A stretch of DNA of 64,000 nucleotides from a virus: positions 1 to 64,000 of the IMG/VR virus record IMGVR_UViG_3300023174_000123; one strand, 5' to 3'. The notes under the pieces are model-generated. The model did not search any database and was not told the DNA's origin. It saw only the letters and a list, made by a program, of their open reading frames with translations. This document shows, in pieces, positions 2,126 to 24,905 of this stretch (the first letter of the stretch is position 1; every line of letters starts with the position of its first letter). A program made the translations under genes and the position numbers.

Positions 2126-2146
2126 TTGGATAATAATGGAACAACC

Positions 2147-8560: not shown

Positions 8561-9933
8561 GTGCCTCCAGGATAAAGGCCTTGATAACTCTTGACCCAGG
8601 TCGTGCCGGTCCATTGATATTGTATTTCTGTGGTGATATTTGTGACATACTGTATATTATCAGGACTTGAGGTCGAGTCAAAAGAAATCTGCCATCTTGA
8701 TCCATCGTATTCCACAATGTCATTGGCATGTGCCACTAGTGGTTGATCGCTGGTTCCGGCCCAGGCTTCAGCATATCCATCATCAAACGATCCGGTATCC
8801 TCGGTAAACAAATACCTTTGGCCAACGGCAGCTGGCGCAAGCCCTGCACCAGGCCCACTGCGCAAAGGATCAATGACACTCAATACCGGATCTAAGGTAT
8901 TGGCCGGAACAGTGTCAATGTCGACCGTGAACAACAAAAATCTGTCATCGGTGGGATCGTAGGCCACTGTACCCACAACATCGGTGCCGTCCTCTTGCTC
9001 CAGTCGGATCAGACTTATTCCGGGTCTGAGTACACCATACACCCCAATAAGGTTGTGCCATAGCAAATTGCTTTCTGGACTGTCAGGTGGTGTTAAACTG
9101 GCATTGCTTTGATCTACAACTTGTTGTTCTCTCAAGGCCTGTAGTTTGCCACCAATCAACAAGACCTGGTATGCATATGGAGTGAACACCTGGCGTGTGC
9201 CCAACAACAAATCGTTGTCTAGGATGGCATTTGACGCATCGCCTTGGGCATCAAAAACTGATGCAACAATACGTTCGACCACTCCCAATTTCTTGACCTT
9301 GGCTGGACTGGAGATCCAGATGGGTATGCTGAAAGTCAAGGTAGCTATGTCTATGGGATTGTCTGCGTTGACAGGTATGACTCTACTTGACCAGTTTACA
9401 CGTTCAAGATTGCACACACTCATGCTGGTCCAGTCAATATAGTTGTCTGTGCTTTGAATTTCCAAAGCAGGATTAAACAACACCAAGACCTGTTCCAAGA
9501 TCTGCATTTTTTGATTGGTGTTTGATGTCCAGATATCTAGATTTATGGTCAATTTATAAGGCACAGGCATCAGACGTTCTATGGTAAAAGCATTGCCTTG
9601 TGTGGTGTCATAGGTATCTGTGTCTGAATCATATGTTCGCTGTCGCACTTGAATATTGCTGACAAAATTTGGTTCTTGTATCCTGGGGCGATCATAATCC
9701 AAGGCCGTGATGTAAAAGGTCATCAACGGAGTGCTTGGCATGTCGTTGGCAGAATTTTCTTGCAAAATAGTCTGTGCTTGACGGCTGGCATCACCGTAGC
9801 GCACTGGCACACGCACCAAGGTGTCTTCCTTGCCGGCCTGGTTGATACCATAGGCCACCTGGAAGTTTGAAAAGATTCTAGCAAACTGTAAGAGGAAGCG
9901 ACGAATTTGTTCGTCATAAAAAAACGTTGCCAC
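8542..9933 (-). CDS. 15: Tail sheath stabiliser gp15-like
   Basis: 463 residues against 272 in T4. The N-terminus (FFYDEQIRRFLLQFARIFSN, then DTLVRVPVRYG) aligns with T4 gp15, which caps the tail beside the neck. A second block (PYKLTINLDIWTSN, then ILEQVLVLFNPALEIQ) matches the T4 segment around IYELSIFTRYED..IVEQILPYFQP. The additional C-terminal 200 residues hold an acidic region and a closing part with YDGSRWQISFDS and WTGTTWVKSYQG, apparently an extra beta domain. The GTG start at 9933 shares a base with the TAG of the upstream endonuclease gene and has AGAGGAG upstream. It is on the opposite strand from the gp13 gene. Confidence 0.82.
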   Translation of the reverse strand: MATFFYDEQIRRFLLQFARIFSNFQVAYGINQAGKEDTLVRVPVRYGDASRQAQTILQENSANDMPSTPLMTFYITALDYDRPRIQEPNFVSNIQVRQRTYDSDTDTYDTTQGNAFTIERLMPVPYKLTINLDIWTSNTNQKMQILEQVLVLFNPALEIQSTDNYIDWTSMSVCNLERVNWSSRVIPVNADNPIDIATLTFSIPIWISSPAKVKKLGVVERIVASVFDAQGDASNAILDNDLLLGTRQVFTPYAYQVLLIGGKLQALREQQVVDQSNASLTPPDSPESNLLWHNLIGVYGVLRPGISLIRLEQEDGTDVVGTVAYDPTDDRFLLFTVDIDTVPANTLDPVLSVIDPLRSGPGAGLAPAAVGQRYLFTEDTGSFDDGYAEAWAGTSDQPLVAHANDIVEYDGSRWQISFDSTSSPDNIQYVTNITTEIQYQWTGTTWVKSYQGLYPGGTWSLVL

Positions 9934-10424
9934 TATAGCTCTCCTCTTTTACGAGCTTCTCTAGTAAATGCGGATTGACTCATCAAAATCTTAGTGCCTT
10001 CTTTATGTTTCTTGCCCCTCATTGCCCCACCATCTATTCTTTTCCATCCGCCTTCTCGTCCCTCGGTTCTTCTACGAGTATGGGCTTTTCTTTGAGCATT
10101 CTTCATTCTCTCAATACTTTCTGCACTGTGTCTTTTATTGTTGCCGGTGCCTCTATTGTTATATAAAACCACACCTTGAGCTCGTAACTTATTGGCCCAT
10201 AGTGTTTCTAACTCATTGAGTTGATCGATATCACCGGCACTGTCAACCACTTCCCATAAAAAGTTTTCAACGCCGTACTTTCTTATGCTGTCATATAAAT
10301 GACTTTTTTTGCCCGATCGGGAATCTGCCTGATGACTATACCACCGCATCTTGGCATTAGACTGAACTGTCTGTCCAACATACATTTTGCCATTGAAGAG
10401 ATTTTTTATAGTGTAGATATACAT
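9933..10424 (-). CDS. GIY-YIG homing endonuclease (Seg-like)
   Basis: 163 residues. The N-terminus YIYTIKNLFNGKMYVGQT carries the two halves of the GIY-YIG motif (IYTI and YVG), with a following Arg/His segment (KMRWYSHQAD). This is the nicking domain of free-standing T4 Seg-type endonucleases. The C-terminal half is Lys/Arg-rich (HSAESIERMKNAQRKAH, then GAMRGKKHKEGTK) and resembles NUMOD3-type DNA-binding repeats. It sits between gene 14 and gene 15, overlapping each by one base (TAATG and TAGTG), so its insertion left both neighbours intact. It probably spreads itself by cutting genomes that lack it. Confidence 0.88.
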   Translation of the reverse strand: MYIYTIKNLFNGKMYVGQTVQSNAKMRWYSHQADSRSGKKSHLYDSIRKYGVENFLWEVVDSAGDIDQLNELETLWANKLRAQGVVLYNNRGTGNNKRHSAESIERMKNAQRKAHTRRRTEGREGGWKRIDGGAMRGKKHKEGTKILMSQSAFTREARKRGEL

Positions 10425-11788
10425 TATCGTCCTGGTGGTCTTGGATTGGGCGGCAAATTGCCACCTTGGTCACCGTTGTCGGCCTGCGGTTTGAGTATTT
10501 GGCTAAGACTCTGACGACTAGGTATGTTGCCTAGATCTGTGGTGCTCACTGTGTAGGTGTTGTTGACAAAGCTGGCACGCTGGGTAAGAGCATTTGTGGC
10601 CAAGTCGAGATCTGTTCTCACATTGTCTTCGATCTTGACCCAGGTCTTGCCATTGTATCTAAACAGGCGATTGGGGAAATAATCTAAACGCAAGGCATAA
10701 TCGCCGACCACTGGATTCTGCGGGAAGCTCACCCCTGGTGTCACAGGCAGGCCATTGGGCGCATATTGATCTCCAGTGAGATAGCCCATGGTATAGCCAA
10801 AGCTTTTGGGTGTGTTGCCTTCACCAGTTTGCGTGCTGTCCACTGTGGGATATGTGTCGTCAGCGGTCAACCCAGCACCACCTGGCTGTCCAAAGGCTGT
10901 GGGTAGAATATAAAATTTGGTAACATCGTAACCACTTAGTGGCACATCGGCCTGTGCTTGTGCAAGCAAGGCATCATTGAGTGCCAGATCTTTGGGTCTG
11001 GTGCTCATCTTGTCGCCCACTGTGGAGGGTGTGGTCGGAGTCCAGTAAGGCAGTCCAGTGTTGGGGTTTATGGCATCAATGGCTGTTCCTGGTGGCACAT
11101 TGCCATTGGCGGTGTAATATGTATTGCCATTGTTGACCACGGTGCCGTTGGGATAAAAGTTTCCTGGATCCCAAATGTTTTCGGGCATGAACGGCTGATC
11201 AACAATTTGTTTGAATTCTTGTGCATTGACCATGGGGGTGGCCTTGATACGCCACAGATGTGGTTGCCAGGTTTGGCTAAAGCCCTCGCTGGCAAAATTG
11301 CCATCTTGTATCACATAGTATCTGGGCAAACTGCGTGGCAAGTTACGATCCAAGGGATGATAGTCTGTGAGATTGGGCACTTCAATAACATCACCACTCA
11401 TGAGCTTGCGACCCAGGGTGTCAATCATGTCGTTGTAGTGAAAGGTCATGAACAAGGTGTCACCGTTCAAGAACAGGCCAAACTGTGTGAGATCAAAATC
11501 TATGTCTTGAGTTCTATACACTCCGCGCATGACAAAAATGTCAGGATCATAGGCTCGGTCACGATTTTCCAACAACAATAAATCTTCAATAAACAAAGGA
11601 TTTGTGCTGTCGTAGATGGGCAAGGTAGCATCGCCTGGATTGTTGGCCTGCGCAGGATCTACGATAGGACCCAGATATTTGTGGACATAGATATCGATAC
11701 CGCCCACAGTGAACATTTCACTGATGTTGCGGTCAAGGTATTGATAATCAGCTGTTCTGTTGGGGCGATAAAGGCTAAGGCGCGGCAT
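10424..11788 (-). CDS. 14: Neck protein gp14-like
   Basis: 454 residues against 256 in T4. Blocks such as DPDIFVMRGVYRTQDIDF and LMSGDVIEVPNLTDYHPL fit gp14, which with gp13 forms the neck joining head and tail. At about residues 206-253 there is an insert resembling a CBM5/12 sugar-binding module (NFYPNGTVVNNGNTYYTANG, later PYWTP). The C-terminus is Pro/Gly-rich. The ATG at 11788 is preferred to an upstream in-frame TTG, because a minus-strand late promoter (CATAAATA) ends only 7 bases before it and would produce a leaderless mRNA. First gene of the minus operon 14, endonuclease, 15, NUDIX. Confidence 0.78.
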   Translation of the reverse strand: MPRLSLYRPNRTADYQYLDRNISEMFTVGGIDIYVHKYLGPIVDPAQANNPGDATLPIYDSTNPLFIEDLLLLENRDRAYDPDIFVMRGVYRTQDIDFDLTQFGLFLNGDTLFMTFHYNDMIDTLGRKLMSGDVIEVPNLTDYHPLDRNLPRSLPRYYVIQDGNFASEGFSQTWQPHLWRIKATPMVNAQEFKQIVDQPFMPENIWDPGNFYPNGTVVNNGNTYYTANGNVPPGTAIDAINPNTGLPYWTPTTPSTVGDKMSTRPKDLALNDALLAQAQADVPLSGYDVTKFYILPTAFGQPGGAGLTADDTYPTVDSTQTGEGNTPKSFGYTMGYLTGDQYAPNGLPVTPGVSFPQNPVVGDYALRLDYFPNRLFRYNGKTWVKIEDNVRTDLDLATNALTQRASFVNNTYTVSTTDLGNIPSRQSLSQILKPQADNGDQGGNLPPNPRPPGR

Positions 11789-11795
11789 AGTCTTG

Positions 11796-11803
11796 TATTT
11801 ATG
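11796..11803 (-). promoter_or_regulatory. Minus-strand late promoter CATAAATA, leaderless type
   Basis: The motif read on the minus strand ends 7 bases before the gp14 ATG (11788). No Shine-Dalgarno sequence is present between them. Transcription should start at about the A of ATG. Confidence 0.7.
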
Positions 11804-11810
11804 GGTCAAA

Positions 11811-11846: not shown

Positions 11847-12101
11847 ATGGATGAATTACTGGATCGTTTGGACAAAATTGAGCGTGCTATTCCACAGATA
11901 CGAAATAAAACAGCTCGCAAAGATCTGCTGAAAATGTTGCGTAACATAGACACGGCCATGAATGCGGTCAGTAGAGAAAGTGTGGAATGCCGACGATTGC
12001 ACAGAGAAACCCTGCACCACAGAGAACTGGTCAAAAAAGCCGACGAACTCATCACCAATCTGGAGCAACATCTAACATTTGCGGCATTGTTGAACGGTTG
12101 A
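11847..12101 (+). CDS. Small coiled-coil protein of unknown function
   Basis: 84 residues, Leu/Glu/Lys/Arg-rich, predicted to be entirely helical with heptad-like spacing (LLDRLDKIERAIPQIRNK, LLKMLRNIDTAM, ADELITNLEQHL). I see no catalytic motif. It follows a strong early promoter and is probably made from a leaderless mRNA. The promoter of the next gene begins inside its stop region. An early host-takeover or accessory role is possible but not shown. Confidence 0.7.
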   Translation: MDELLDRLDKIERAIPQIRNKTARKDLLKMLRNIDTAMNAVSRESVECRRLHRETLHHRELVKKADELITNLEQHLTFAALLNG

Positions 12102-12126
12102 CCAAAAAAGAGTCGGGTGTTATAAT
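12098..12126 (+). promoter_or_regulatory. Early sigma70-type promoter
   Basis: TTGACC (12098-12103), a 17-base spacer, then TATAAT (12121-12126). Transcription should start near 12133. The leader contains AGGAG (12141-12145), 5 bases before the ATG at 12151. The -35 box overlaps the stop of the preceding gene. Confidence 0.88.
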
Positions 12127-12150
12127 AATACTTTACACTTAGGAGAACGC

Positions 12151-13296
12151 ATGAACGCACGAGCCGCAACTGTGATCAAGCCCTTGAATCCCAAAGGAGC
12201 AGAAACCAAATATGTTGGGCACGAGCCTGACTGGAAATTCCAACCCACAGAAGAAAATCGCATCAGTGCATTCAGCAAGGCCTTTGCCTGGTACAACTAT
12301 CACTATGGCAAAAAAGATGCCAAAGACATGCTGTGCCAGTACCTGGACGTCAATCACAGACCCAAGGATGCCAAACTCATGCGTGGCATTCCAGACAGTC
12401 AGATCCGTCTCACACCGGCCTGGGTAGCCAGGATGACCTTGATGGGCCTGCAACTTAATGAGCATGAACAGTGCATCATTGACGAGCAGATTGCCACGAT
12501 GTTGAAAATAAAACAAGAAATAAAAAAGGTCATTGACGAGGCCGAAGTGGCAGTAGCAAAACTCACAATCCAAGACCATCTGCGTGAAAAAGTTTCAGAA
12601 TGTGCCGGCGAACTAGAAGGCATGTTCGATGAATTTATTGCAGCTGGTGCCAAAATGACCGCAGACTGGAAACCCATTGCACAGATACGTGGGATGAATA
12701 TCAGCCCCAACATGGTGGGTACCATCGCTGATACCTGGAAGATCAAGTTGGCCGAGTTTGAAGAAGTGCTAGAAGGAGAAGATGCCGACCTGGTGGAGGG
12801 TTACAGCCATCTCACCAAGAATCAAATCAAACAATGTGTTAAATTTATTGAGCAGGTCATTGCCGACTGCGGTAATTATGTGCAGATCAAGAAAGTGGAA
12901 CGCAAGCCACGTGCTAAAAAAGCTGTGAGCCCAGAAAAACTTTCATCCAAATTTAAGCACATGAAAGACTTTGCCGAGCTCAAGCTCACAGGCGTTGCAC
13001 CGGCACAGTTGGTGGGCGCCAGCGAAGCTTGGTTGTATGATACCAAAAAACGCAAACTAGTCCATGTGATAGCTGACAGTCACCTGGGCACATTCAGTGT
13101 CAAAGGATCGGCTATAGTGGGTTTTGATACCACACAGACTGTGCAGAAAACTCTACGCAAACCAGCAGACCAGCTCAAAGAGTTACTGGGCGGTGGTAAA
13201 CCCGCGGCACGCAAAGTGTTCAAGGACATCAAGGCCACAGAAACCAAGTTCAACGGGCGTGGCAACGAGAATCTGATCATACTCAAGGCCTGGTAA
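12151..13296 (+). CDS. Conserved early protein of unknown function
   Basis: 381 residues. The N-terminal part is rich in aromatic and charged residues (FSKAFAWYNYHYGKKDAKD), then a long helical stretch around residues 100-150. A basic linker (KKVERKPRAKKAVSPEKL, about residues 250-267) leads to a C-terminal beta-rich domain (ASEAWLYDTKKRKLVHVIAD, then KGSAIVGFD). The basic linker and two-domain form would suit nucleic-acid binding, but I recognise no family. It has a consensus early promoter and AGGAG. Its stop codon lies inside the late promoter of gene 13, so transcription changes class here. Confidence 0.72.
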   Translation: MNARAATVIKPLNPKGAETKYVGHEPDWKFQPTEENRISAFSKAFAWYNYHYGKKDAKDMLCQYLDVNHRPKDAKLMRGIPDSQIRLTPAWVARMTLMGLQLNEHEQCIIDEQIATMLKIKQEIKKVIDEAEVAVAKLTIQDHLREKVSECAGELEGMFDEFIAAGAKMTADWKPIAQIRGMNISPNMVGTIADTWKIKLAEFEEVLEGEDADLVEGYSHLTKNQIKQCVKFIEQVIADCGNYVQIKKVERKPRAKKAVSPEKLSSKFKHMKDFAELKLTGVAPAQLVGASEAWLYDTKKRKLVHVIADSHLGTFSVKGSAIVGFDTTQTVQKTLRKPADQLKELLGGGKPAARKVFKDIKATETKFNGRGNENLIILKAW

Positions 13297-13299
13297 ATA
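13292..13299 (+). promoter_or_regulatory. Late promoter GGTAAATA overlapping a stop codon
   Basis: The TAA stop of the preceding early gene (13294-13296) is part of the motif. It would start mRNA near 13305, within the 5' arm of the hairpin that precedes gene 13. Confidence 0.6.
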
Positions 13300-13300
13300 C

Positions 13301-13319
13301 AAGGGAACGGAGTTCCCTT
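13301..13319 (+). promoter_or_regulatory. Hairpin presenting the gene 13 Shine-Dalgarno
   Basis: A perfect 8-bp stem AAGGGAAC/GTTCCCTT encloses the triloop GGA. The likely ribosome site GGAG (13309-13312) is the loop plus the first stem base, 8 bases before the ATG at 13321. No T run follows, so this is not a terminator. If the late start is near 13305, late mRNA would carry a truncated 5' arm and form only a weakened stem, whereas read-through early mRNA would carry the full hairpin. Confidence 0.65.
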
Positions 13320-13320
13320 T

Positions 13321-14091
13321 ATGGCCTTAGAAAATCAATCCAGCTTAGAAACCTTAAAACAGAATCTATTTGACTATGTAAGCCTGCAACTGGGCAGTCA
13401 GATCATTGATCTTGAGCTGGATGCCGAACATTATGAAGCAGCTTATCAGAGAACCATTGGAGTTTACAGACAACGGGCACAGAATGCCTACGAAGAAAGT
13501 TATAGTTTTTTAGAGCTAGTGACAAATGTCAACATCTACGACTTGCCACAAGAAGTAATCACTGTGCGTCAAATTTTCCGTAGGACTTTTGGCGATAGCA
13601 CAGGTCCATTTGCCAGCAACTTCGATCCGTTCAGCCAAGCAAGTTTGAATGTGTATCTCATGAATTTCAATGTGGCTGGTGGATTGGCCACCTATGATTT
13701 CTACAGCCAATATGTTGAACAGGCTGGCAAAATGTTTGGTGCCTATATGAACTACACCTGGAATCCTGTGACCAAAAAACTGCAGCTAATACGTGATCCC
13801 AAAGGCACAGGCGAGAATGTGTTGCTTTGGACCTATAATCTCAAACCCGAATTCAATCTGCTCAAAGATTATCAAATCCAACAATGGATACGCGACTACA
13901 TGGTGGCCAACTGTAAAATGATCATAGGCGAAGCACGTGAAAAATTTGGACAGTATGCAGGCCCACAGGGCGGCAGCCAGCTTAATGGTACCGCTCTTAA
14001 AACCGAAGCACAAACTCAAATGGATGGCCTCATTGAGGATCTGCGTAGATACGTTGATGGCAGTCAACCCTTAACCTGGGTCATAGGTTAA
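13321..14091 (+). CDS. 13: Neck protein gp13-like
   Basis: 256 residues against 309 in T4. Segments such as IDLELDAEHYEAAYQRTIGV, RQRAQNAYEESYSFLEL and VNIYDLPQEVITVRQIFRR fit the gp13 family of head-completion and connector proteins, which bind below the portal. Context agrees, since gp14 and gp15 are encoded just upstream on the other strand. A late promoter and an unusual hairpin carrying the ribosome site precede it. In T4, genes 13, 14 and 15 are co-linear; here gene 13 faces away from the other two. Confidence 0.78.
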   Translation: MALENQSSLETLKQNLFDYVSLQLGSQIIDLELDAEHYEAAYQRTIGVYRQRAQNAYEESYSFLELVTNVNIYDLPQEVITVRQIFRRTFGDSTGPFASNFDPFSQASLNVYLMNFNVAGGLATYDFYSQYVEQAGKMFGAYMNYTWNPVTKKLQLIRDPKGTGENVLLWTYNLKPEFNLLKDYQIQQWIRDYMVANCKMIIGEAREKFGQYAGPQGGSQLNGTALKTEAQTQMDGLIEDLRRYVDGSQPLTWVIG

Positions 14092-14097
14092 ACATCA

Positions 14098-14126
14098 TAG
14101 ACTAACACCAAAATTCATGCTATAAT
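14098..14126 (+). promoter_or_regulatory. Early promoter, leaderless type
   Basis: TAGACT (14098-14103), a 17-base spacer, then TATAAT (14121-14126). Six bases (ATCAGC) separate the -10 box from the ATG at 14133, with no Shine-Dalgarno sequence. Confidence 0.75.
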
Positions 14127-14132
14127 ATCAGC

Positions 14133-14654
14133 ATGAGCTCATTGATGATCGACATAGAAGGCCTGGCCACTGGACCAGATGCTACCATACTGACCATTGC
14201 GGCCCAGAGCTTTGATCCGTTTGGTACCGGCTACTACGATCGTTGCTACTATGCTCGCATCACACTAGAGAGTCAAGAAAATCGTGCCATAGAAGAAGGT
14301 ACCTTGCAGTGGTGGTCAACCCAGAAAGAAGCACAGGTAGAAGCATTCATGGAAGAAGGGCGTGTGCCACTAGATCAAGCACTTGATAGTCTTTACAAAC
14401 TGGCCTGGCAACACAAATTCATATGGATGAACGGACCCACGTATGATGCAAATATCTTAGAACACGCTTATAAGAGCTATAGCAAACCTTTGCCTTGGAA
14501 ATTTTACAATGTGCGTGATGCTAGAACTGTGTATAGTTTGTGGCCCGAACTGCCCAAGCCTGCTACCAGCCATCATGCTCTGGAAGACTGCCGCAGGCAA
14601 ATTGACATGCTACAACAAACACTCAAACACTTGAACGTAAAGGAAATCAGATGA
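14133..14654 (+). CDS. dexA: DexA-like 3'-5' exonuclease (DEDD family)
   Basis: 173 residues. It has the DEDD acidic pairs: MIDIEGL near the N-terminus (Asp7, Glu9), an Asp in MNGPTYDANILEHAY, and the closing HHALEDCRRQ with His and Asp. This fits the compact Rv2179c/DexA-type exonucleases that trim 3' ends of DNA or RNA. T4 DexA degrades DNA and is dispensable. The mRNA should be leaderless. It overlaps the gene 1 ATG by 4 bases (ATGA), so the two nucleotide-metabolism genes are co-translated. RNA rather than DNA as substrate cannot be excluded. Confidence 0.78.
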   Translation: MSSLMIDIEGLATGPDATILTIAAQSFDPFGTGYYDRCYYARITLESQENRAIEEGTLQWWSTQKEAQVEAFMEEGRVPLDQALDSLYKLAWQHKFIWMNGPTYDANILEHAYKSYSKPLPWKFYNVRDARTVYSLWPELPKPATSHHALEDCRRQIDMLQQTLKHLNVKEIR

Positions 14655-15298
14655 TCATTGGGGTATGCGGACTTATTGGTGCTGGCAAAGATACCATAGC
14701 AGACTATCTGGTAAACATACATCAGTTCCGCAGAGAAAGTTTTGCCAACACACTCAAAGACGCTGTGAGTTCAGTGTTTGGCTGGGATCGTGAACTGCTG
14801 GAAGGGCGTACCAAACACAGCAGGGCCTGGCGTGAGCAAGTGGATCCATGGTGGGCCGAACGCTTGGGCATGCCTGATTTGACTCCGCGATGGGTGCTAC
14901 AATACTGGGGAACAGAAGTAGTGCGTAGAGCGTTTCATGATGATACCTGGATTGCCAGCCTGGAAAACAAACTGCGTAAAACCACGGACGATGTGGTAAT
15001 TTCAGACTGCAGATTCCCTAATGAAATTGCAGCCATTAGAAATGCCGGCGGTTTAGTTATAAGAGTGCACCGTGGTCCAGACCCAGATTGGTATAATTTA
15101 GCAGAAATCAGCAATTCCGGTCCACAAAACTTGCAGTGGACCACAGCAAAAATAGCTCTTGAAAAATACAATATACATGCCAGCGAAACTTCCTGGATTG
15201 GCACCCGTTTTGATGCAGTCATAGACAACAACGGCACCATGGATCATTTATACTCGCAGATCAACGATCTGGTTCAAGATCCCCGGGTTTCCAGATAA
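14651..15298 (+). CDS. 1: Deoxynucleoside monophosphate kinase gp1-like
   Basis: 215 residues. The N-terminus MIIGVCGLIGAGKDTIADYL holds the P-loop GLIGAGKDT (residues 7-15). RFPNEIAAIRNAGGLVIRVH is typical of T4 gp1-type dNMP kinases, which phosphorylate dNMPs to feed replication. It is translationally coupled to the exonuclease gene, suggesting salvage of released nucleotides. Its last 38 bases overlap the convergent HNH gene. Confidence 0.88.
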   Translation: MIIGVCGLIGAGKDTIADYLVNIHQFRRESFANTLKDAVSSVFGWDRELLEGRTKHSRAWREQVDPWWAERLGMPDLTPRWVLQYWGTEVVRRAFHDDTWIASLENKLRKTTDDVVISDCRFPNEIAAIRNAGGLVIRVHRGPDPDWYNLAEISNSGPQNLQWTTAKIALEKYNIHASETSWIGTRFDAVIDNNGTMDHLYSQINDLVQDPRVSR

Positions 15299-15608
15299 TA
15301 TCTGATTTTTTAATTTCTACAGCACAGTTTTGACACACAGTTTTTAGATTGCGTAGACTGCTGTTGTTGAGATTTCCATCTACATGGAACACTATAAGTT
15401 GTGCAGCATATCTTGACCTGAATCCACAGCGATCGCAGGCATTCTTTTTCTTGTAGCCAGACGATCGCCATCGTGGCTCAGGGGTCTTTATTCCCCGGCC
15501 ACGCCGTATGCAGTGCTCACAACGGCCGCGATAATGTGTGACATCTTCTTTAATGTAATTTACAGCACAAAATCTTTGGTTGCAGGCCTGGCAAACGGGT
15601 CGATCCAT
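15261..15608 (-). CDS. HNH-type zinc-binding putative endonuclease
   Basis: 115 residues with four CxxC pairs: CQAC (residues 8-11), CEHC, CDRC and CQNC. A central segment (LIVFHVDGNLNNSSLRNLKT) matches the core of HNH nucleases, in which a His-x-Asp/Asn-Gly and an Asn lie between the CxxC knuckles. It is probably a small homing-type or packaging-type HNH nuclease. Because it sits alone on the minus strand with its own late-type promoter 4 bases before the ATG, a selfish element is the simpler reading. Confidence 0.75.
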   Translation of the reverse strand: MDRPVCQACNQRFCAVNYIKEDVTHYRGRCEHCIRRGRGIKTPEPRWRSSGYKKKNACDRCGFRSRYAAQLIVFHVDGNLNNSSLRNLKTVCQNCAVEIKKSDIIWKPGDLEPDR

Positions 15609-15612
15609 GCTG

Positions 15613-15620
15613 TATTTACA
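15613..15620 (-). promoter_or_regulatory. Minus-strand late promoter TGTAAATA, leaderless type
   Basis: The motif ends 4 bases before the HNH gene ATG (15608). No ribosome site is present. It lies back to back with the tail sheath promoter. Confidence 0.5.
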
Positions 15621-15670
15621 CCAAAACCTTTGCCAAAGGGACAGAATACGAGAACCTTTTTGCCTTTTTT

Positions 15671-15678
15671 AATAAATA
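15671..15678 (+). promoter_or_regulatory. Late promoter AATAAATA for the tail sheath gene
   Basis: It lies 26 bases before the ATG at 15705, with AAGGA at 15694-15698 in the leader. A strong ribosome site suits a very abundant structural protein. Confidence 0.75.
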
Positions 15679-15704
15679 TCAATAACTAGAAAAAAGGATT
15701 TACC

Positions 15705-18700
15705 ATGGCACTAATATCACCAGGCGTAGAAGTCACAGTCATTGACGAAAGTCAGTACATTCCTGCCGCTACCAACTCGGTCCCTTACATCTTGATAGCC
15801 ACAGCACAGAACAAAGTTTCTGGCACAGGCGTAGGTGTTGCTGCCGGCACACTCAAGGCCAATGCTAACAGGCCTTATTTGATTACCAGTCAACGTGATC
15901 TATCGGCCACGTTTGGTGTGCCATTCTTTTACAAGACCACTGCAGGAACTCCTATCAATGGTTACGAGCTCAATGAATACGGTTTGTTGGCTGCTTACAG
16001 TGCCCTGGGTATTACCAATCGTGCCTATATCCAACGTGCTGACATTGATCTAGCCGCACTCACAGCTAGCCTGGTACGTCCAACAGGAAATCCTGACAAC
16101 GGAACCTACTGGTTTGATACCGCCGACAGCCTGTGGGGTATATTCCAGTGGAATCAAACCACAGCTGCCTTTACCAATCAGATCCCCACAGTGATCACTG
16201 ACACCACAGATCTTGAACCTAGTTCCACAGTGCCATTGCAGAGTATCGGCGCAATTGGTGATTATGCTGTGGTCACAACCAATGTAAACAACCCTGGTTA
16301 TTTCAAGCGCGGTGGACCCACAGTGGATCAAACCAGCGCCACTGACCTCAGTGATTACTACAATACCTGGGTTGAAATCGGTAGCGATGAATGGAAAACC
16401 TCTTGGCCCACAATACAAGGCACTTTGGCTCCGGCTACATTGACTGCTGGCAACACATTCCGTGTCAATGGCACTCTTATCACAGTGCCACCATCAACTA
16501 ATAACACCGTAGAAGGTGTCAGCGATGCCATCAACTCTGCCGCTATTACTGGAGTTTATTCATCATTCATCGACGGCAAACTACAGATTTATGCCAACAG
16601 CTTGGCCACAGCTGATGGCAGTACCGGTGGTGAAGGCGCAGTAGAAATCAATGCAGGCACAGGCACAGTGTTAACTGATCTTGGTATCAGCACCGGCACC
16701 AGCTATGCTCCAGCTTTCTTGGCAGCTCCCAACTATTCTTCACCACGTTGGAGAAGCACCGATGATCAACCTGAACCCACAGGTTCAGTATGGCAACGTA
16801 CCAACAATGTGAACCTTGGTGCTAACTTGGTAGTCAAGAAATACAATACCACACTGGGACAATTTGTACAGCAAGGTTGCGCTATCTATTCCAGCACCAG
16901 CCAAGCAACTTACACAATAGATCCATCCGGTGGTGGACGCAACATCCTGGCTGGAACCACAGTGGCCACAACCAATCCAGAATTTAATAACCCTGTGACA
17001 TTTGGCCTTGAAATTTTTGAAAGATACAGCACGGGATCTACTATTGTCACAGGTAGCACCAGTACACCTGGACCGTTTGTCAGTGGAAACAGATTTGACA
17101 TAGCAGCCACAATTCCTGGATCGGCCACATTGGCCAGCTCGGTCACAGCCGAGTTAACTGGCACTACAGTGGCAGATTTCGTCACAGCAGTGAGCGCTGC
17201 TGTGGGTTCGTCCACATTTGCAAGCTACGTGACAGCATCAGTCAACAGTGCAGGTTCCATTGTGTTTACACACTCAGCAGGTGGCGACATCGTATTGACC
17301 AACAACACAGGTACACCGCTGACCACCGCAGGATTTACCACCAGCACAGAATTTGTGCGTCCAGGCAACGGTAGCTCTTTGGTGTTGAGTTACTGGGTAG
17401 GTTCGCCAACATTTACCTACACAGCCAGCGCTACAGCACCCGATCAAGATCCTGCGTCTGGCACATATTGGTATTACAGTGCCACCACACAAGCAGATAT
17501 CATGATCCAGAACAATGGAATGTGGATGGGTTATCAGAATGTCACCAACGATGTGCGTGGTGACAACTTGAGTCTGACCAATGCCACTGGTCCTATATTC
17601 AGCACCACCGCACCTACCACACAGACTAACACAGCACAGAGTCCATTACAGTATGGTGATCTGTGGATTGATACCAGTGATTTGGAAAACTATCCTGTGA
17701 TCAGTCGTTGGAGTAACATTGAAGGTGCAGATCAGTGGGTGCAGATCAGCAACACAGATCAAACCACTCAGAATGGTATCTTGTTCGCAGATGCTCGTTG
17801 GGCTCCCAATGGCACAACCAACCCTATCACTGGCAATATTCCTACCATAGTGAGTTTGTTAACCAGCAACTATTTGGATCTAGATGCTCCAAATCCTGCA
17901 CTGTATCCACAAGGAACCTTGCTGTTCAACACACGCCGCAGTGGATTCAATGTCAAACAGTTTGAAGCAGATTATTTCAATACTTCTGCCTTTAATCTGG
18001 ATGTGTATGACAGCACCACACAATATGCCTACAATGATTTTGTCAACTACAATGGTGTGATTTATGTTTGCACAGCAACTCCTCCCACAGCAGGCATAGC
18101 TCCCAGCAACACAAGCTATTGGGCTGCCATTGAAACCAATACCTGGGTCACAGCCTCTGGCAACAAGTCTTCGGGCGCACCTTACATGGGTCGCCAGGCT
18201 CAGCGGGCTATCATAGTGGCTGCTCTCAAAAGCGGAATTGATTCCAGCGTGGAGATCCGCGAAGAACAACGTCAGTTTAACTTGATGGCTTGTCCACAGT
18301 ATCCTGAGTTGATTCCCAACATGGTTGAGCTGAACAACGATCGCAAAAACACAGCATTTGTAATTGGCGATACGCCATTGCGTCTTGGACCCGACGGCAA
18401 CCAAATCAGTGACTGGGCCAATGATGCAGGAGCAAGTGCAATTACTGGAGATGCTTTGGCCACCGGAGACGTATACCTTGGAGTATTCTATCCCAGCTGC
18501 CAGACCACAGACTTGAGCGGCAGCCCAGTGGTTACAGCTCCCAGCCACATGATGATTCGCACTATCATACGCAGTGATGAAGTTGCATTTCCTTGGTTGG
18601 CACCGGCCGGAACACGCCGCGGTGTGGTGGACAATGCCGCACGCATTGGTTATGTAAATGCTACCACTGGTGAGTTTATCACCATCGGTGTAAGTCAGAG

Positions 18701-19151
18701 TCTACGTGATGTGTTGTATCAATTGCGTATCAACCCAATCACTTTTGTGCCTGGAATTGGTATAACCAACTTTGGTAACAAGACCACGACTGCTAATATT
18801 ACAGCACTAGATCGCATCAACGTGGCACGCTTGGTAGCGTTTATACGTGGTAGATTGCAAGAAATTGGCAACACATTCTTGTTTGAACCCAATGATCAGA
18901 TCACTCGCAACGAGATCAAGAACACTATCGACAGTCTCATGATTGACTTGGTCAACAAGCGTGGTATCTATGACTACCTGGTGGTTTGCGACTTGACCAA
19001 CAACACGCCAGCTCGTATTGATGCCAACGAACTCTATGTTGATATTGCTATTGAACCAGTCAAAGCAGTTGAATTCATCTACATTCCACTGCGTATCAAG
19101 AACACTGGCGAAATTGCTACCAGCATCAGCACCGTGGCAACGGCAGCGTAA
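15705..19151 (+). CDS. 18: Tail sheath protein gp18-like, enlarged
   Basis: 1,148 residues against 659 in T4. The N-terminus (MALISPGVEVTVIDESQYIP, then LITSQRDLSATFGVPF) and the C-terminal contractile core (MMIRTIIRSDEVAFPWLAPA, later IYDYLVVCDLTNNTP) are typical sheath sequence. The extra length is inserted in the middle. Two related modules near residues 245-330 and 460-550 (NTVEGVSDAINSAAITGVYS and VADFVTAVSAAVGSSTFAS) resemble flagellin/hook-type insert repeats. Near residues 765-810 there is a CBM5/12-like sugar-binding motif (YDSTTQYAYNDFVNYNGVIY, closing with YWAAIE). These should project from the sheath surface. Late promoter, AAGGA ribosome site. Confidence 0.92.
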   Translation: MALISPGVEVTVIDESQYIPAATNSVPYILIATAQNKVSGTGVGVAAGTLKANANRPYLITSQRDLSATFGVPFFYKTTAGTPINGYELNEYGLLAAYSALGITNRAYIQRADIDLAALTASLVRPTGNPDNGTYWFDTADSLWGIFQWNQTTAAFTNQIPTVITDTTDLEPSSTVPLQSIGAIGDYAVVTTNVNNPGYFKRGGPTVDQTSATDLSDYYNTWVEIGSDEWKTSWPTIQGTLAPATLTAGNTFRVNGTLITVPPSTNNTVEGVSDAINSAAITGVYSSFIDGKLQIYANSLATADGSTGGEGAVEINAGTGTVLTDLGISTGTSYAPAFLAAPNYSSPRWRSTDDQPEPTGSVWQRTNNVNLGANLVVKKYNTTLGQFVQQGCAIYSSTSQATYTIDPSGGGRNILAGTTVATTNPEFNNPVTFGLEIFERYSTGSTIVTGSTSTPGPFVSGNRFDIAATIPGSATLASSVTAELTGTTVADFVTAVSAAVGSSTFASYVTASVNSAGSIVFTHSAGGDIVLTNNTGTPLTTAGFTTSTEFVRPGNGSSLVLSYWVGSPTFTYTASATAPDQDPASGTYWYYSATTQADIMIQNNGMWMGYQNVTNDVRGDNLSLTNATGPIFSTTAPTTQTNTAQSPLQYGDLWIDTSDLENYPVISRWSNIEGADQWVQISNTDQTTQNGILFADARWAPNGTTNPITGNIPTIVSLLTSNYLDLDAPNPALYPQGTLLFNTRRSGFNVKQFEADYFNTSAFNLDVYDSTTQYAYNDFVNYNGVIYVCTATPPTAGIAPSNTSYWAAIETNTWVTASGNKSSGAPYMGRQAQRAIIVAALKSGIDSSVEIREEQRQFNLMACPQYPELIPNMVELNNDRKNTAFVIGDTPLRLGPDGNQISDWANDAGASAITGDALATGDVYLGVFYPSCQTTDLSGSPVVTAPSHMMIRTIIRSDEVAFPWLAPAGTRRGVVDNAARIGYVNATTGEFITIGVSQSLRDVLYQLRINPITFVPGIGITNFGNKTTTANITALDRINVARLVAFIRGRLQEIGNTFLFEPNDQITRNEIKNTIDSLMIDLVNKRGIYDYLVVCDLTNNTPARIDANELYVDIAIEPVKAVEFIYIPLRIKNTGEIATSISTVATAA

Positions 19152-19169
19152 CACCATGGTCCAAACAAC

Positions 19170-19177
19170 CATAAATA
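19170..19177 (+). promoter_or_regulatory. Late promoter CATAAATA for the tail tube gene
   Basis: The ATG at 19199 lies 21 bases downstream, with AGGAG at 19187-19191 in the leader. Confidence 0.75.
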
Positions 19178-19198
19178 AAGTATATAGGAGATAATACC

Positions 19199-19819
19199 AT
19201 GGCAGTTTCATCGTTGACAAGAATGACAGTGCCTTTGGCCAGTGACCAAAGCAATCCAAATCAGGGCTTGTTGATGCCCAAACTCAAGTATCGCTTTAGA
19301 GTGATATTTGAAAATTTTGGAGTCAGCACGCCTCGCACAGAACTCACCAAGCAAGTGATCGACTTCACTCGCCCCAGCGTGACTTTTGCTGACATTGATG
19401 TGCCCATCTATAACAGCACTGTGAAACTGGCTGGCAAATACACCTGGGATAACATTACCTGTAACCTGCGTGATGACGCCGGCGGCAATGTTTCCAGGCT
19501 GGTTGGTGAACAGCTACAGAAGCAGTTGGACTTCATGGAAATGGCGTCAGCAGCCTCAGGTATTGACTACAAGTTCTTGACCCGATTTGAAATCCTAGAC
19601 GGCGGCAATGGTGTTGCTGAACCCGTAGTTTTGGAAAACTGGGAAATCTATGGTTGCTACTTGCAAGGCGTAAATTACAACAACGTGGACTATGGTGCCA
19701 GCGAAGCTGTGACAATCACCATGACCATACGCTTTGACAACGCCAACCAGACTCCTGGACAAGGTGTTGGAACATTGGTTGGAAGAACAGTGGGTGACGT
19801 AGCTACCGGGGTAGGCTAA
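19199..19819 (+). CDS. 19: Tail tube protein gp19-like
   Basis: 206 residues against 163 in T4. It follows the sheath gene, as in T4. LKYRFRVIFENFG near the N-terminus and YGASEAVTITMTIRFDNANQ near the C-terminus fit the tube fold that forms stacked hexameric rings inside the sheath. A late promoter and a strong AGGAG support high expression. The next gene, 5 bases after its stop, is probably a larger relative. Confidence 0.85.
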   Translation: MAVSSLTRMTVPLASDQSNPNQGLLMPKLKYRFRVIFENFGVSTPRTELTKQVIDFTRPSVTFADIDVPIYNSTVKLAGKYTWDNITCNLRDDAGGNVSRLVGEQLQKQLDFMEMASAASGIDYKFLTRFEILDGGNGVAEPVVLENWEIYGCYLQGVNYNNVDYGASEAVTITMTIRFDNANQTPGQGVGTLVGRTVGDVATGVG

Positions 19820-19824
19820 ACGTC

Positions 19825-21051
19825 ATGGCCTGGGGACAAGATTTCCTCAAAGGATTTTTTGGCGCTGATGCATTAAAAACTTACAGTCACGCCAGCAAAA
19901 CTTTCCTAACCAACGGATACGAACTAGCCCCGCGGCAGAAGTTCTTATTCCATGTTTACTTTACCATAAACACACAGCAGGTTCCTGCACTTCGTGATGC
20001 CTTTCCTAACCAGGATGTAGCACAGGTTGGCCTCATGGTCAAGAACATACAGTTGCCCAGTTACCAGATGAGTGTGGAAACACTGAATCAATACAACCGT
20101 AAAAGGCTGGCACAGACCAAGATTGACTACAATCCTGTGCAGGTAGAATTCCACGACGATGGTGGGGATCTAGTGCGCAACATGTGGTATAACTATTTCA
20201 AATACTACTACAAAGATCCCAGCCAAAAATACGACAACGTTTCCAGCACCAACGGTCAAATGGCCGCCATGATGCAAAGCCCAGTGGGATTCAGCTACAA
20301 CAACAGAGACATCTACGACAACAGTCGCACCGTCAATGACTGGGGCTACATTGGTGAAAGCGCCAACGACGGTTATACTACTCTAGATGGATCAGCTTCA
20401 GGCAAGCCTCCGTTCTTCCGTGACATACGTATCTATGGACTGAACCAACGCAGATTCGCCGAGTATATACTAATCAATCCCATGGTCACAGAGTGGAATC
20501 ATGATACCTATGATTATTCACAAGGTGGCGGAACCATGAGTCACAGGATGACGGTGCGCTATGAAACAGTCAAATACTATACCGGAGCCATTGGAGGCGT
20601 AAGGCCTGATACCAACGTGGTTGGATTTGCTGACCCAGCCTATTACGACACTGTGCCCAGCGCCCTGGCACGACCTGGAGCCACACAGACTGTTTTGGGT
20701 CAAGGTGGATTGTTGGATGCTGGCATAGGCATCATTGAAGATCTACAGAGCGGCGGAGTGGCCGGCGCCATTGGTGCAGTGCAAAAAGCTGGCACTGCCT
20801 ACTACACATTCAAAGACAAAAATATCCGCGCCACAGTCAACGAAGAAATCAATCAAAGTGCCAGAAACATCATACGTGGCAGTCTACCCGGAGCTGTTCG
20901 TGGTGCCATTGGAAGCACTGCGTCATCGCCTAATCCTTTGGGCATACCCACACCAAATCGTGGACAGTTGGATGGCATATTCTTTCCAACACCGCCAAGG
21001 TCGGCCACCACTACACCGCCTTTTAATCCTGCTGGTGGAGGCGGAGCATGA
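19825..21051 (+). CDS. Tail-tube-like structural protein
   Basis: 408 residues. Residues 35-60 (LAPRQKFLFHVYFTINTQ) and 90-125 (YNPVQVEFHDDGGDLVRNMW, then YFKYYYKD) are tube-fold elements. YGLNQRRFAEYILINPMVTE and GTMSHRMTVRYETVKYYTG continue that pattern. The C-terminal 130 residues are low-complexity, Gly/Ala/Pro-rich and probably extended. It may be a baseplate-proximal or tube-terminator member of the gp19/gp48/gp54 superfamily; which one cannot be decided here. It lies 5 bases after gene 19 and overlaps the next ATG by 4 bases. Confidence 0.72.
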   Translation: MAWGQDFLKGFFGADALKTYSHASKTFLTNGYELAPRQKFLFHVYFTINTQQVPALRDAFPNQDVAQVGLMVKNIQLPSYQMSVETLNQYNRKRLAQTKIDYNPVQVEFHDDGGDLVRNMWYNYFKYYYKDPSQKYDNVSSTNGQMAAMMQSPVGFSYNNRDIYDNSRTVNDWGYIGESANDGYTTLDGSASGKPPFFRDIRIYGLNQRRFAEYILINPMVTEWNHDTYDYSQGGGTMSHRMTVRYETVKYYTGAIGGVRPDTNVVGFADPAYYDTVPSALARPGATQTVLGQGGLLDAGIGIIEDLQSGGVAGAIGAVQKAGTAYYTFKDKNIRATVNEEINQSARNIIRGSLPGAVRGAIGSTASSPNPLGIPTPNRGQLDGIFFPTPPRSATTTPPFNPAGGGGA

Positions 21052-21413
21052 GCACAATAAACACAGCCAACCCTACAATAGATCAAACAGTGCGCATCTA
21101 TGATGCGTTCTACAACTACGCTGCTAATATTCCTGCAGAAGAATATGATGCCGTGCTGAGCTATTTCAAAAATGTGTTTACCACTAGATTGGCCGCAGAA
21201 AATTTTACTTCAGCTCTGTTTAGAGTGGCCGAAGAAACCAATCAAAGTGCCTTGACCCTGTTGCAAACATTCCAACAAGGTGGGCAAAGTGAGCCAGAAG
21301 TCACCATACTCATGGCCTACTATCTCAACAGTGTGCGCAGTCCAGCTACCTTGTTGGGTGTGTTGACTCCTACCCAGCCCAACTTCTACGCTGCCAGAAA
21401 CGTAAAGGCCTGA
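21048..21413 (+). CDS. Small conserved structural-operon protein, unknown
   Basis: 121 residues, mostly helical. It starts in an ATGA overlap with the tube-like gene. Segments VRIYDAFYNYAANIPAEEYD, YFKNVFTTRLAAENFTSALF and ILMAYYLNSVRSPATLLGVL suggest a small helical bundle. I recognise no family. Its position between tail tube and head completion genes suggests a minor virion or assembly factor. Confidence 0.72.
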   Translation: MSTINTANPTIDQTVRIYDAFYNYAANIPAEEYDAVLSYFKNVFTTRLAAENFTSALFRVAEETNQSALTLLQTFQQGGQSEPEVTILMAYYLNSVRSPATLLGVLTPTQPNFYAARNVKA

Positions 21414-21415
21414 TC

Positions 21416-21859
21416 ATGGCCAATTTCCGTCAAGGCGTATACACTGTTAGGAATCCTCAAAAATACGTGGGCAAAGGCACCCCCAGATACAGATCGGGCT
21501 GGGAGCTTACTTTTATGATGTTTCTTGACAGCAATGACAACATTGTTCAATGGGCTTCAGAAAGCATTACCATACCCTATAGAAATCCCATCACCGGCAA
21601 GCAAAGCATGTATGTGCCAGATTTTTTTGTGACTTACCGTGGACGTGACAATACCACACGTGCCGAACTGATAGAAATCAAGCCCAAAAAACAAAGTCTA
21701 ATTGAAAGTAAAATGAGCGACCGAGACCGTGCTATTGTGGCAGTCAACTACGCCAAGTGGGATTCTGCAACCAAATGGGCACGGCGCAACGGACTCACAT
21801 TTAGAGTAATCAACGAAGACATGATATTCCATCAAGGTAGTCGAAAAACCGGTAAATAG
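21416..21859 (+). CDS. 4: Head completion protein gp4-like
   Basis: 147 residues, close to T4 gp4 (150). YRSGWELTFMMFLDSNDNIV, YVPDFFVTYRG and ELIEIKPKKQS form the Glu, Asp and Glu-x-Lys pattern of a TnsA/restriction-endonuclease-like fold, which is characteristic of gp4. In T4, gp4 completes filled heads before tail joining. It lies 2 bases after the preceding stop, followed at once by the small terminase gene. Confidence 0.85.
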   Translation: MANFRQGVYTVRNPQKYVGKGTPRYRSGWELTFMMFLDSNDNIVQWASESITIPYRNPITGKQSMYVPDFFVTYRGRDNTTRAELIEIKPKKQSLIESKMSDRDRAIVAVNYAKWDSATKWARRNGLTFRVINEDMIFHQGSRKTGK

Positions 21860-21862
21860 GTC

Positions 21863-22360
21863 ATGACTCGTCGCCTTGAAGAACTGTTTGATTTGCCACC
21901 CAGTGGTAGCACCAGCGAAACCACTGAACCCGAATCTATTCCTGCCACGCAGATAGCACTCAAAGAAATCAATGCTACCATAGACAAAATTGACGAAGCC
22001 CTGCCGGCTGTGCGAGGCTTGGATGCGTCTGACACTGAAATGGATGAAATAGCAGCCAAGGCACAAGAGACCTTTGACAATTTGATGGACTTGGGGTTCA
22101 ATGTAGATAGTCGTTACAGCGGCGAAATATTTGCAGTGGCTGGCACCATGCTGGGCCATGCGCTCACAGCCAAAACGGCCAAGCTAAACAAGAAGTTGAA
22201 AATGGTCGATCTGCAACTGAAAAAGCTCAAAATGGATCAGGATCGGGCCAGCACTGCCGGAGATGAAGCAGTGGAAACGGCACACGGACAGATATTGAGC
22301 CGCAATGATTTGCTAGAGCGTCTGATGGCGTCTAGAGACCAAAAAGATACAAAAGCATAA
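21863..22360 (+). CDS. 16: Small terminase subunit gp16-like
   Basis: 165 residues, T4 gp16 164. It is highly helical, with MTRRLEELFDLPPS at the start and a central coiled-coil segment AKLNKKLKMVDLQLKKLKMD, the ring-forming helices of small terminases. Marine T4-like phages encode a very similar protein as gp16. It regulates the gp17 motor, which is encoded 12 kb downstream rather than next to it as in T4. The TAA stop is part of the next late promoter. Confidence 0.75.
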   Translation: MTRRLEELFDLPPSGSTSETTEPESIPATQIALKEINATIDKIDEALPAVRGLDASDTEMDEIAAKAQETFDNLMDLGFNVDSRYSGEIFAVAGTMLGHALTAKTAKLNKKLKMVDLQLKKLKMDQDRASTAGDEAVETAHGQILSRNDLLERLMASRDQKDTKA

Positions 22361-22363
22361 ATA
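22356..22363 (+). promoter_or_regulatory. Late promoter CATAAATA overlapping a stop codon
   Basis: It contains the TAA stop of gene 16 (22358-22360). The leader carries AGGGA (22369-22373) before the ATG at 22382. It drives the capsid-targeted cluster. Confidence 0.75.
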
Positions 22364-22381
22364 TCATATAGGGATACAAAT

Positions 22382-22990
22382 ATGAAAAAATTTCAAGAAT
22401 ACCTGGCCGAAAGCGAAAGAACCTACCGCTATAGGATCAAAATCGTGGGTGACGTAGCACCTGACTTTGTCAAGATGCTGACTGAAAAACTCAAACAGTT
22501 TGATCCGGTCAAGATTGGTTCGCCAAAAACCACGCCGGTGCAACTCAAGCCTGCTGACTTCCCCAAGCACAGCAATGACTCAGTGACCAGCATGGATTGT
22601 GAATTCCGCTATCCAGCCATTGAACCACAGATCAAACAGATCGCACAGTTATTGTTCTTGGATCCTAATAGAATCATCATGTTGACCACACCGCACGAAG
22701 ACAGCATGGACGTCGAGCGTGAAAAGATCGCGGATCAAAACAAAGATCTGCTCACTGACACAGACTATCCTGCTCCTGACGCTGAACAAAAGGCACTCAG
22801 CAAAGATTATTCGGCACCCTATGACGAACATGCTGTGTTGAAGAATGCCTATCGCAGTGACTTCACAGTAGCTGGAGGCAAGACACCACCAGCCAAGACT
22901 ACAAATGATTTGCCTATGGGCACATCAAGCCCTATGACCAAGGTCAAGCGACCACCACGCCCAGCCACTGGCGCCAACCCAAGAGGATAA
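22382..22990 (+). CDS. Putative internal head protein with capsid-targeting sequence
   Basis: 202 residues. The first ten, MKKFQEYLAE, match the T4 internal-protein capsid-targeting sequence MKTYQEFIAE at six positions, with conservative changes at the rest bar one. The end L-A-E fits the T4 prohead protease rule, a hydrophobic residue, any residue, then Glu. The next part (RTYRYRIKIVGDVAPDFVKM, then FDPVKIGSPKTTPVQL) looks like a small alpha/beta domain. The C-terminal third is Pro/Lys-rich and disordered. I infer that it is packaged in the prohead, trimmed after Glu10, and possibly injected with DNA. It could alternatively be a core scaffold component. Confidence 0.7.
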   Translation: MKKFQEYLAESERTYRYRIKIVGDVAPDFVKMLTEKLKQFDPVKIGSPKTTPVQLKPADFPKHSNDSVTSMDCEFRYPAIEPQIKQIAQLLFLDPNRIIMLTTPHEDSMDVEREKIADQNKDLLTDTDYPAPDAEQKALSKDYSAPYDEHAVLKNAYRSDFTVAGGKTPPAKTTNDLPMGTSSPMTKVKRPPRPATGANPRG

Positions 22991-22994
22991 CAGC

Positions 22995-24905
22995 ATGACA
23001 TTTTTTTACGACCTAAATAAGAAGTTGGCTGACCTGGCCAAGAAACAAGACCTTGTTGAGAGTGCTCAGCCAGTGGCTGAACGTAGCACTGGTGACTACT
23101 CGGCCAAGAAAGCTGCTGCGGGCAAAGACATTGGTAAGCCTGGCAAGATGTTTTCAAAGATTGCTAAGTCGGCAGGCGAGCGTTATGGCTCCAAAGAGCG
23201 TGGCGAGAAAGTTGCAGGTGCTGTATTAGCCAAACTGCGTGCCAAAGAAAGTGCCGGCAACATGGATGAGAGTGCTCTCCAAGCATACCTGGGTAAAAAG
23301 AAATACGGCGAGACTGGCATGAAGGCCCTGCAGAAAGCCGGCCGTGAAGGCGCCAGCAAAGAGACCATGGCCAAGATCCGTGCCAAACACGACAAGATGG
23401 ACGAAGAAATAGCCGACGAAGGCAACGCATTTACAGCCAAGCTCAAGAGCACACCCAAGGGTGGCGAGTTTGAACTGGATGGCAAAAAATACAAAGACAC
23501 CAGCAACATCGAAGAGAAAAAAGAAACCAAAAAATCTCGCAGTGCTGGCACAGCATTTGATCCTGAAGTGGCCAAATCAATGTTTGCCACCAAAGACGAG
23601 CATCCAAGATATGATGTCAAAGACACAGGCTACAGTAAACGTTACACAAGAAAAGAAGAACCTGAAGAAAAAGATGATGTAGAAGTCACGGATCAACCCA
23701 AGAAGAAAGGTCGTCCAAAAGGTCCTGAGAAAGGTCCTGAGCGTGTAACCAAAGGCAGCCACAAGTACAAAATGGTCAATGGCAAGCGTGTCAAGAAAGA
23801 AAAGACCGAAGAAGATCTTGACACCGACGGCGTCATGATGACACGTCCGTCAAACATGAGTTCGGAAGACATTGAAAGTGTCAGCCTGATCAACAAAGGT
23901 GAATACGATCGTGAAGGCGAAATGGCCAAGGACGATTTGGAAAGTCTTGCCATGGCTGCCAAAGAGTTGCATGCCATTCTTGGCGACGATGAAAATCTGC
24001 CTGAGTGGGTCCAAAGCAAAATCACCAAGGCCTTGGATTATATCAACAGCAGCAATCAATACATGCATCAACAAAAAGATGATGCAGAACCCGTGGCAGA
24101 AAAAGCCGTCAGCCAGGCACAACGCAGAGCCGCTGGCATAGCACATGCCGCACAAAAAGGCGAGATCCCCAAAAGCGAGTTGCGTGGCGCGTCAAAAGAA
24201 ATGGCCCGGATGCCCAAGGGTGAACTGCACAAGTTTGCAGCGACCAAAGAAAAAGGTCTTCCAAAGAAAGTCAAAGAAGCCGGCAAACCCGACTTTTTAG
24301 ATCTTGACAAGGATGGCAACAAGTCCGAACCCATGAAACAAGCTGCCAAACAAGCCAAAGGCAAGACGAAAGAAGAAGCCGTTGACGAAACAACTGTAGC
24401 CGGATCAGTGGCCACAGCACCCACTGGTGGTAAATCCAAGGGCGGTGTGCAGTTTGGCAAGGGCGTGTATGAAAGCCTGGATCGAAAGTTCCGGCAGGCA
24501 CTCACAGAAGGCATGAACGTAAGTGTGAACATGAACACTGGTCCTGATGGTAATCCCAGCAAGAACATCACTGTCAGTGCCGACGGTGAAGATGCAGAAG
24601 CCTTGGCCGCATTGTTAAAGATGGCTGGCATGGGCGGTCACGACAACGCAGAAAGCTGTGGCACCTGTGGCAAAGCACCCTGTGGCTGTGAGGAATTAGA
24701 TGAGAACAGCCCAGACTGGCCCACAAACACAGAAACCAGCGACAATGCCATGCAGTATTCAGGAGGCCTCAATGGTCCTAAATCAACTGGACAAACAACA
24801 GTTCCTGTGATTGCCAGCCAACTGCGTCGCCAAGTTTCAATGGAAGAGTCAATGGAACTTGAGCGCAATCTGTTCCGTTTATACCAAAACTATAAAGCAC
24901 AATGA
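22995..24905 (+). CDS. Large charged prohead-core-like protein
   Basis: 636 residues, extremely Lys/Glu/Ala-rich and largely disordered. An N-terminal L-V-E (residues 20-22) and several later sites such as L-T-E fit prohead protease cleavage. AVSQAQRRAAGIAHAAQKGE, with KSELRGASKEMARM after it, resembles the DUF3008 type. FLDLDKDGNKSEPM contains an EF-hand-like calcium loop. Near the C-terminus CGTCGKAPCGC could bind zinc. It lies between two proteins with capsid-targeting starts and overlaps the next ATG (ATGA). A scaffold or internal core polyprotein is most likely; this is inference. Confidence 0.68.
   Translation: MTFFYDLNKKLADLAKKQDLVESAQPVAERSTGDYSAKKAAAGKDIGKPGKMFSKIAKSAGERYGSKERGEKVAGAVLAKLRAKESAGNMDESALQAYLGKKKYGETGMKALQKAGREGASKETMAKIRAKHDKMDEEIADEGNAFTAKLKSTPKGGEFELDGKKYKDTSNIEEKKETKKSRSAGTAFDPEVAKSMFATKDEHPRYDVKDTGYSKRYTRKEEPEEKDDVEVTDQPKKKGRPKGPEKGPERVTKGSHKYKMVNGKRVKKEKTEEDLDTDGVMMTRPSNMSSEDIESVSLINKGEYDREGEMAKDDLESLAMAAKELHAILGDDENLPEWVQSKITKALDYINSSNQYMHQQKDDAEPVAEKAVSQAQRRAAGIAHAAQKGEIPKSELRGASKEMARMPKGELHKFAATKEKGLPKKVKEAGKPDFLDLDKDGNKSEPMKQAAKQAKGKTKEEAVDETTVAGSVATAPTGGKSKGGVQFGKGVYESLDRKFRQALTEGMNVSVNMNTGPDGNPSKNITVSADGEDAEALAALLKMAGMGGHDNAESCGTCGKAPCGCEELDENSPDWPTNTETSDNAMQYSGGLNGPKSTGQTTVPVIASQLRRQVSMEESMELERNLFRLYQNYKAQ

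Follow-up and report, generated by a model that had tools for sequence, protein, structure and literature searches.

The window analyzed here, 64,000 nucleotides long, is part of an 85,331-bp IMG/VR virus record (IMGVR_UViG_3300023174_000123). On its plus strand lies an open reading frame that occupies exactly the interval, positions 15705 to 19151, in which a reading made from the letters alone had placed a tail sheath gene, and the identification holds: the 1148-residue product matches PHROG_10581 (E 1.7e-205) and the Pfam sheath C-terminal domain (PF17482, E 2.2e-16; 60.2 bits against a cut-off of 26.9, at residues 1035-1131), and its whole AF2 model (pLDDT 89) matches the T4 sheath in Foldseek (E 3.1e-21), with the sheath fold built from the N- and C-terminal parts of the protein. 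The gene thus encodes a jumbo-myovirus tail sheath of the contractile T4 gp18 type, whose N- and C-terminal core is predicted to hold the tube and contract around it. The gene and the neighbors that bear on its identity are as follows.

8542-9933, minus strand: T4 gp15-type tail sheath stabilizer (Pfam PF16724, E 5.6e-28)
14651-15298, plus strand: deoxynucleoside monophosphate kinase (PHROG_139, E 1.4e-52)
15705-19151, plus strand: tail sheath protein, 1148 residues (PHROG_10581, Pfam PF17482, Foldseek)
19199-19819, plus strand: tail tube protein 1 (PHROG_4542, E 1.2e-48)
19825-21051, plus strand: second tail-tube-like protein, 408 residues (PHROG_13438, E 1.1e-17)

The order of deoxynucleoside monophosphate kinase, sheath, and tail tube genes, with neck Ad2 farther upstream, is that of PA5oct and RaK2, and the kinase gene also adjoins the sheath gene in Phosso. 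The two tail-tube-like genes form a tandem pair, the second about twice as long as the first. Also in the window are a GIY-YIG homing endonuclease gene (9933-10424, minus strand), between the sheath stabilizer gene and a virion structural gene; a terminase large subunit gene (34425-36011, plus strand), which matches only positions 434-871 of the 890 in its best PHROG profile and whose first part may be missing or encoded elsewhere; and a gene for a 1419-residue protein (2126-6385, plus strand), the first 190 or so residues of which match head-decoration and tail-fiber PHROGs.

Positions 12000-24900 of the window found no match among phages by megablast, and the nearest sheaths from isolated phages, at 39-45% identity, belong to Atu_ph07, Phosso, and PA5oct-like phages, with RaK2 next. 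Viral contigs supplied 123 sheath relatives, the best 80 of which were kept, and the alignment used below holds 85 sequences, the window sheath and 84 relatives. The phiKp24 sheath, considered as a RaK2-like member, has 689 residues and an outer part related to phiKZ gp29, and it was therefore excluded from the evidence. The sheaths of Atu_ph07 (1086 residues) and Phosso are of the PHROG_10581 type, about 45% identical to the window protein over 65% of its length and colinear with it in the core. Long sheaths occur elsewhere: that of S-TIM5 has 1137 residues, and four distant relatives (L114, L142, L158, and L169) have still longer sheath reading frames, of 1292-1367 residues; in the three of these that were scanned (L114, L142, and L158), Pfam has no name for most of the middle.

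The window sheath shares its core fold and nested domain plan with T4 gp18 (PMC3004832). At 1148 residues against 659 it is 489 residues longer, in agreement with the excess of about 490 first noticed, but residues 230-860 do not form a single added block, since about half of that stretch is body shared with RaK2/PA5oct-type sheaths, to which residues ~121-240, 341-440, and 561-763 align. A gain and loss history of their own is confined to three modules, all missing from T4 gp18, at residues ~241-340, ~441-560, and 764-810. The resulting map, in which pN/pS values are uncorrected counts over 40 related, non-independent pairs, reads as follows, all on the plus strand.

15705-16064, plus strand: conserved core, N-terminal part, residues 1-120 (alignment; pN/pS 0.06)
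16065-16424, plus strand: middle body, residues 121-240, common to RaK2/PA5oct-type sheaths (mostly occupied in distant relatives)
16425-16724, plus strand: Flagellin_IN-type module 1, residues ~241-340 (alignment, homology to module 2, AF2)
16725-17024, plus strand: middle body, residues 341-440, common to RaK2/PA5oct-type sheaths (alignment)
17025-17384, plus strand: Flagellin_IN-type module 2, residues ~441-560 (alignment, homology to module 1, AF2)
17385-17993, plus strand: middle body, residues 561-763, common to other jumbo sheaths (alignment; pN/pS 0.13)
17994-18134, plus strand: CBM5/12-fold module, residues 764-810 (profile match to 1ED7; AF2; lacking in 20 of the 69 close relatives)
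18180-19148, plus strand: conserved core, C-terminal part, residues 826-1148 (PF17482; pN/pS 0.10)

Residues 1-120 are occupied in all 84 aligned relatives and are 75-98% identical to the close ones. Trp-rich G-x-x-W stretches near residues 121, 345, 575, and 632 were considered as internal repeats, for which profile-profile comparison gave no support. With a core and at least two extra domains, the window sheath has the makeup of a type 3 multidomain sheath, a class that, in the accessible text of the report that described such sheaths in 2022 (PMC9230969), includes those of Atu_ph07 (classed there as having five or more domains), Salicola SCTP-2, and RaK2. According to the same text, type 3 sheaths resemble the window sheath in their conserved N- and C-terminal core, the several added beta domains that they carry at a distance from the tube, and the large genomes that encode them; the extra domains are mostly Ig-like, and that part of the report makes no mention of a CBM5/12-fold module such as the window sheath has (PMC9230969). 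Our literature search, in which few subscription journals were covered, turned up no published description of a CBM in a tail sheath. Long multidomain sheaths were thus known already, and what is new, within the literature searched, is an optional CBM-fold module in a sheath.

The middle of the protein had also been credited with two flagellin-type modules. The duplication is borne out by profile-profile comparison (probability 91%, E 1.3e-7); in the window protein, Pfam Flagellin_IN (PF07196) matches neither the whole sequence nor the two isolated modules. Among 43 relatives the same Pfam family matches 9, at best with E 1.1e-4, and it also matches, weakly, the Atu_ph07 sheath; the two scores seen do not reach the cut-off of 22.7. 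Both modules are modeled by AF2 at a pLDDT of mostly 93-97, a loop near residue 305 excepted. Module 1 is present in all close relatives and in about 20% of distant ones, and a counterpart region of module 2 is visible in RaK2. The Atu_ph07 and Phosso sheaths have a Flagellin_IN-type module but, unlike the window sheath, no CBM5/12-fold module, and module 2 was not seen in the Atu_ph07 copy.

Evidence from sequence profiles and from structure prediction supports the assignment of residues 764-810 to the CBM5/12 fold. A profile built from 24 copies of the module was compared with solved structures, and its top match in the PDB is 1ED7, the chitin-binding domain of chitinase A1 (E 2.5e-6), which upholds the CBM5/12-like motif of the sequence-only reading; it scores 29.0 bits against that domain, whereas 1000 shuffles of the domain reach at most 10.1 bits. 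Pfam CBM_5_12 stays below its cut-off of 26.2 in the window sheath (15.6 bits for the whole protein, 22.3 bits for the isolated segment) and matches 26 of 43 relatives, with a best E of 3e-6. Structure prediction had been set beforehand as the check on the fold, and the AF2 model of the isolated module (pLDDT 89.8, three strands) carries it, matching 8KEC, 1H0G, 2D49, and 1ED7 with a Foldseek probability of 0.99-1.00 and E values of 0.006-0.11, which are modest because the domain is small (57 residues). Matches at this probability comprise the A-1(L) tail fiber, chitinase CBMs, phage 7-7-1 fibers, and the Milano receptor-binding complex.

In sequence the module lies closest not to chitinases but to modules in phage fibers and other phage proteins, lectin-like ones included: sheath modules score up to 58.5 bits against phage fiber modules versus 29.0 bits against chitinase A1. 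The nearest are the fiber modules of JS10, Aeromonas phage 65, and A-1(L) gp33, which sit in fiber proteins, some of them beside collagen-like stretches, and not in a sheath. The stretch of A-1(L) gp33 that matches our profile, residues ~141-181, falls within the joint domain (residues 111-215), which binds the wedges and fixes the fiber to the baseplate (PMC10966104), and outside the cell-wall-binding domain.

The sugar-binding character first attributed to the module was not borne out. A CBM5 grips sugar with a consecutive Tyr-Trp or Trp-Trp pair and one further aromatic residue; a separate Tyr and Trp belong to its core (PMC8449059). Tyr774 and Trp806 are invariant in the sheath modules and are taken, by alignment position, as the hydrophobic-core pair. 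After Tyr787, at the presumed place of the CBM5 pair, the modules have no aromatic, and the position of the CBM12 loop Trp, which we take to be the residue that matters most for binding in chitinase A1, is occupied by Asn, Ile, Gln, Glu, or His. In the window copy the binding-aromatic positions are held by Thr790, Ala791, and Ile798; across the family the loop aromatic is absent from 27 of 30 copies and is a Tyr in the other three (L004, L008, and L016). The chitinase A1 (1ED7) and chitinase C (2D49) domains thus share their fold and core residues with the sheath module but not their sugar-binding aromatics, which are also missing from the fiber modules of JS10 and Aeromonas phage 65. Sugar contacts may be made elsewhere on the module. 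Most likely it is a phage "connector" version of the fold, in which the sugar platform was lost or never present. A CBM5/12 match in a virion protein of a phage does not necessarily imply sugar binding, because the phage versions examined keep the fold and are mostly without the binding residues.

Of 69 close relatives, 49 have the CBM module and the other 20 cleanly lack it, a difference that falls at one indel site. The modules are in frame in all copies, and the state of the CBM module changes at least six times on the core tree (a quick tree with some open forks). By uncorrected counting over 40 related, non-independent pairs, pN/pS is 0.29-0.30 in the three modules versus 0.06 and 0.10 in the N- and C-terminal core. 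At the amino-acid level, then, the pace of change in the modules is about 3-5 times that of the core, and at a pN/pS of about 0.3 they are still under purifying selection. In a low-identity alignment the inserts map to domains I and II of T4 gp18 or to the II/III boundary. Domains I and II are solvent-exposed in T4, where domain I takes no part in contacts between subunits (PMC3004832). Since the inserts fall at domains I and II and evolve faster than the core, we infer, as the sequence-only reading proposed, that the modules probably lie on the outer face of the assembled tail; by analogy with the T4 sheath, which has 138 copies of its subunit (PMC3004832), hundreds of module copies per tail are plausible.

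We lean toward the view that this is a standard jumbo-myovirus sheath whose modules are a structural elaboration of its surface, the CBM-fold piece being most likely a connector without the sugar platform. The middle, corresponding roughly to the outward domains I and II of T4 gp18, has been elaborated in this lineage with two related Flagellin_IN-type modules and with the small CBM5/12-fold module, which has been gained or lost repeatedly. So placed, the modules may stiffen or shield the tail surface, contact neighboring subunits, or dock folded-back fibers. A narrower form of this structural reading makes them docking sites for virion parts such as retracted fibers and baseplate proteins, with module gain and loss following changes in the docking partners. 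The exposed domain I of T4 gp18 is where the baseplate and the retracted long tail fibers attach (PMC3004832), the fiber arm of A-1(L) sits in a groove of the sheath (PMC10966104), and a fiber-type module is common to sheath and fibers; we regard this version, partner changes included, as possible and hold it tentatively.

A shaft that is itself weakly adhesive, holding the phage near cells or particles through many low-affinity contacts with glycans of the host or the environment, is also possible and is not the likeliest reading, because the module is without the aromatics that grip sugar, both in the window copy and, at the loop position, in 27 of 30 copies. The fold itself invites the idea, as does the occurrence of this module type in host-contacting tail fibers and lectin-like phage proteins; presence or absence and rapid change would suit host-range adaptation, and the 2022 report already proposes that extra sheath domains may help in adhesion (PMC9230969). 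Against it stands A-1(L), in which the same fold serves within an anchoring domain. We think it improbable that the turnover is near neutral, with small self-folding beta modules recombining into exposed-domain loops and persisting as harmless passengers: the clean indel at one site and its at least six changes would fit such a process, as would the nested insert described below, but purifying selection on the modules, the intact frame in all copies, and the cost of many subunits per virion all count against it. Least probable of all, in our estimate, is an optional CBM-fold array on the shaft, in many copies per virion, that within one phage lineage is toggled between strains and binds glycans or particles multivalently through a non-canonical site, in which case the sheath and not the fibers would set where the phage lingers.

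The 49 relatives with the module and the 20 without it form a natural series in which a sheath conserved in other respects has or lacks one small module, and the role of extra sheath domains can therefore be tested by comparing relatives. In one clade (L060 and eight loci between L064 and L075), flagellin-type module 1 contains an extra Gly/Thr/Ser-rich insert of about 75 residues, so that modules are here nested in modules. Elsewhere in the window no CBM-like module scored above threshold. The virion structural protein encoded at 10424-11809 on the minus strand (PHROG_11591) scores -4.7 bits for such a module and is too diverged to call; a CBM5/12-like module does occur in the homologues from L121, L128, and L122, with E values of 6.6e-7 to 1.3e-5.
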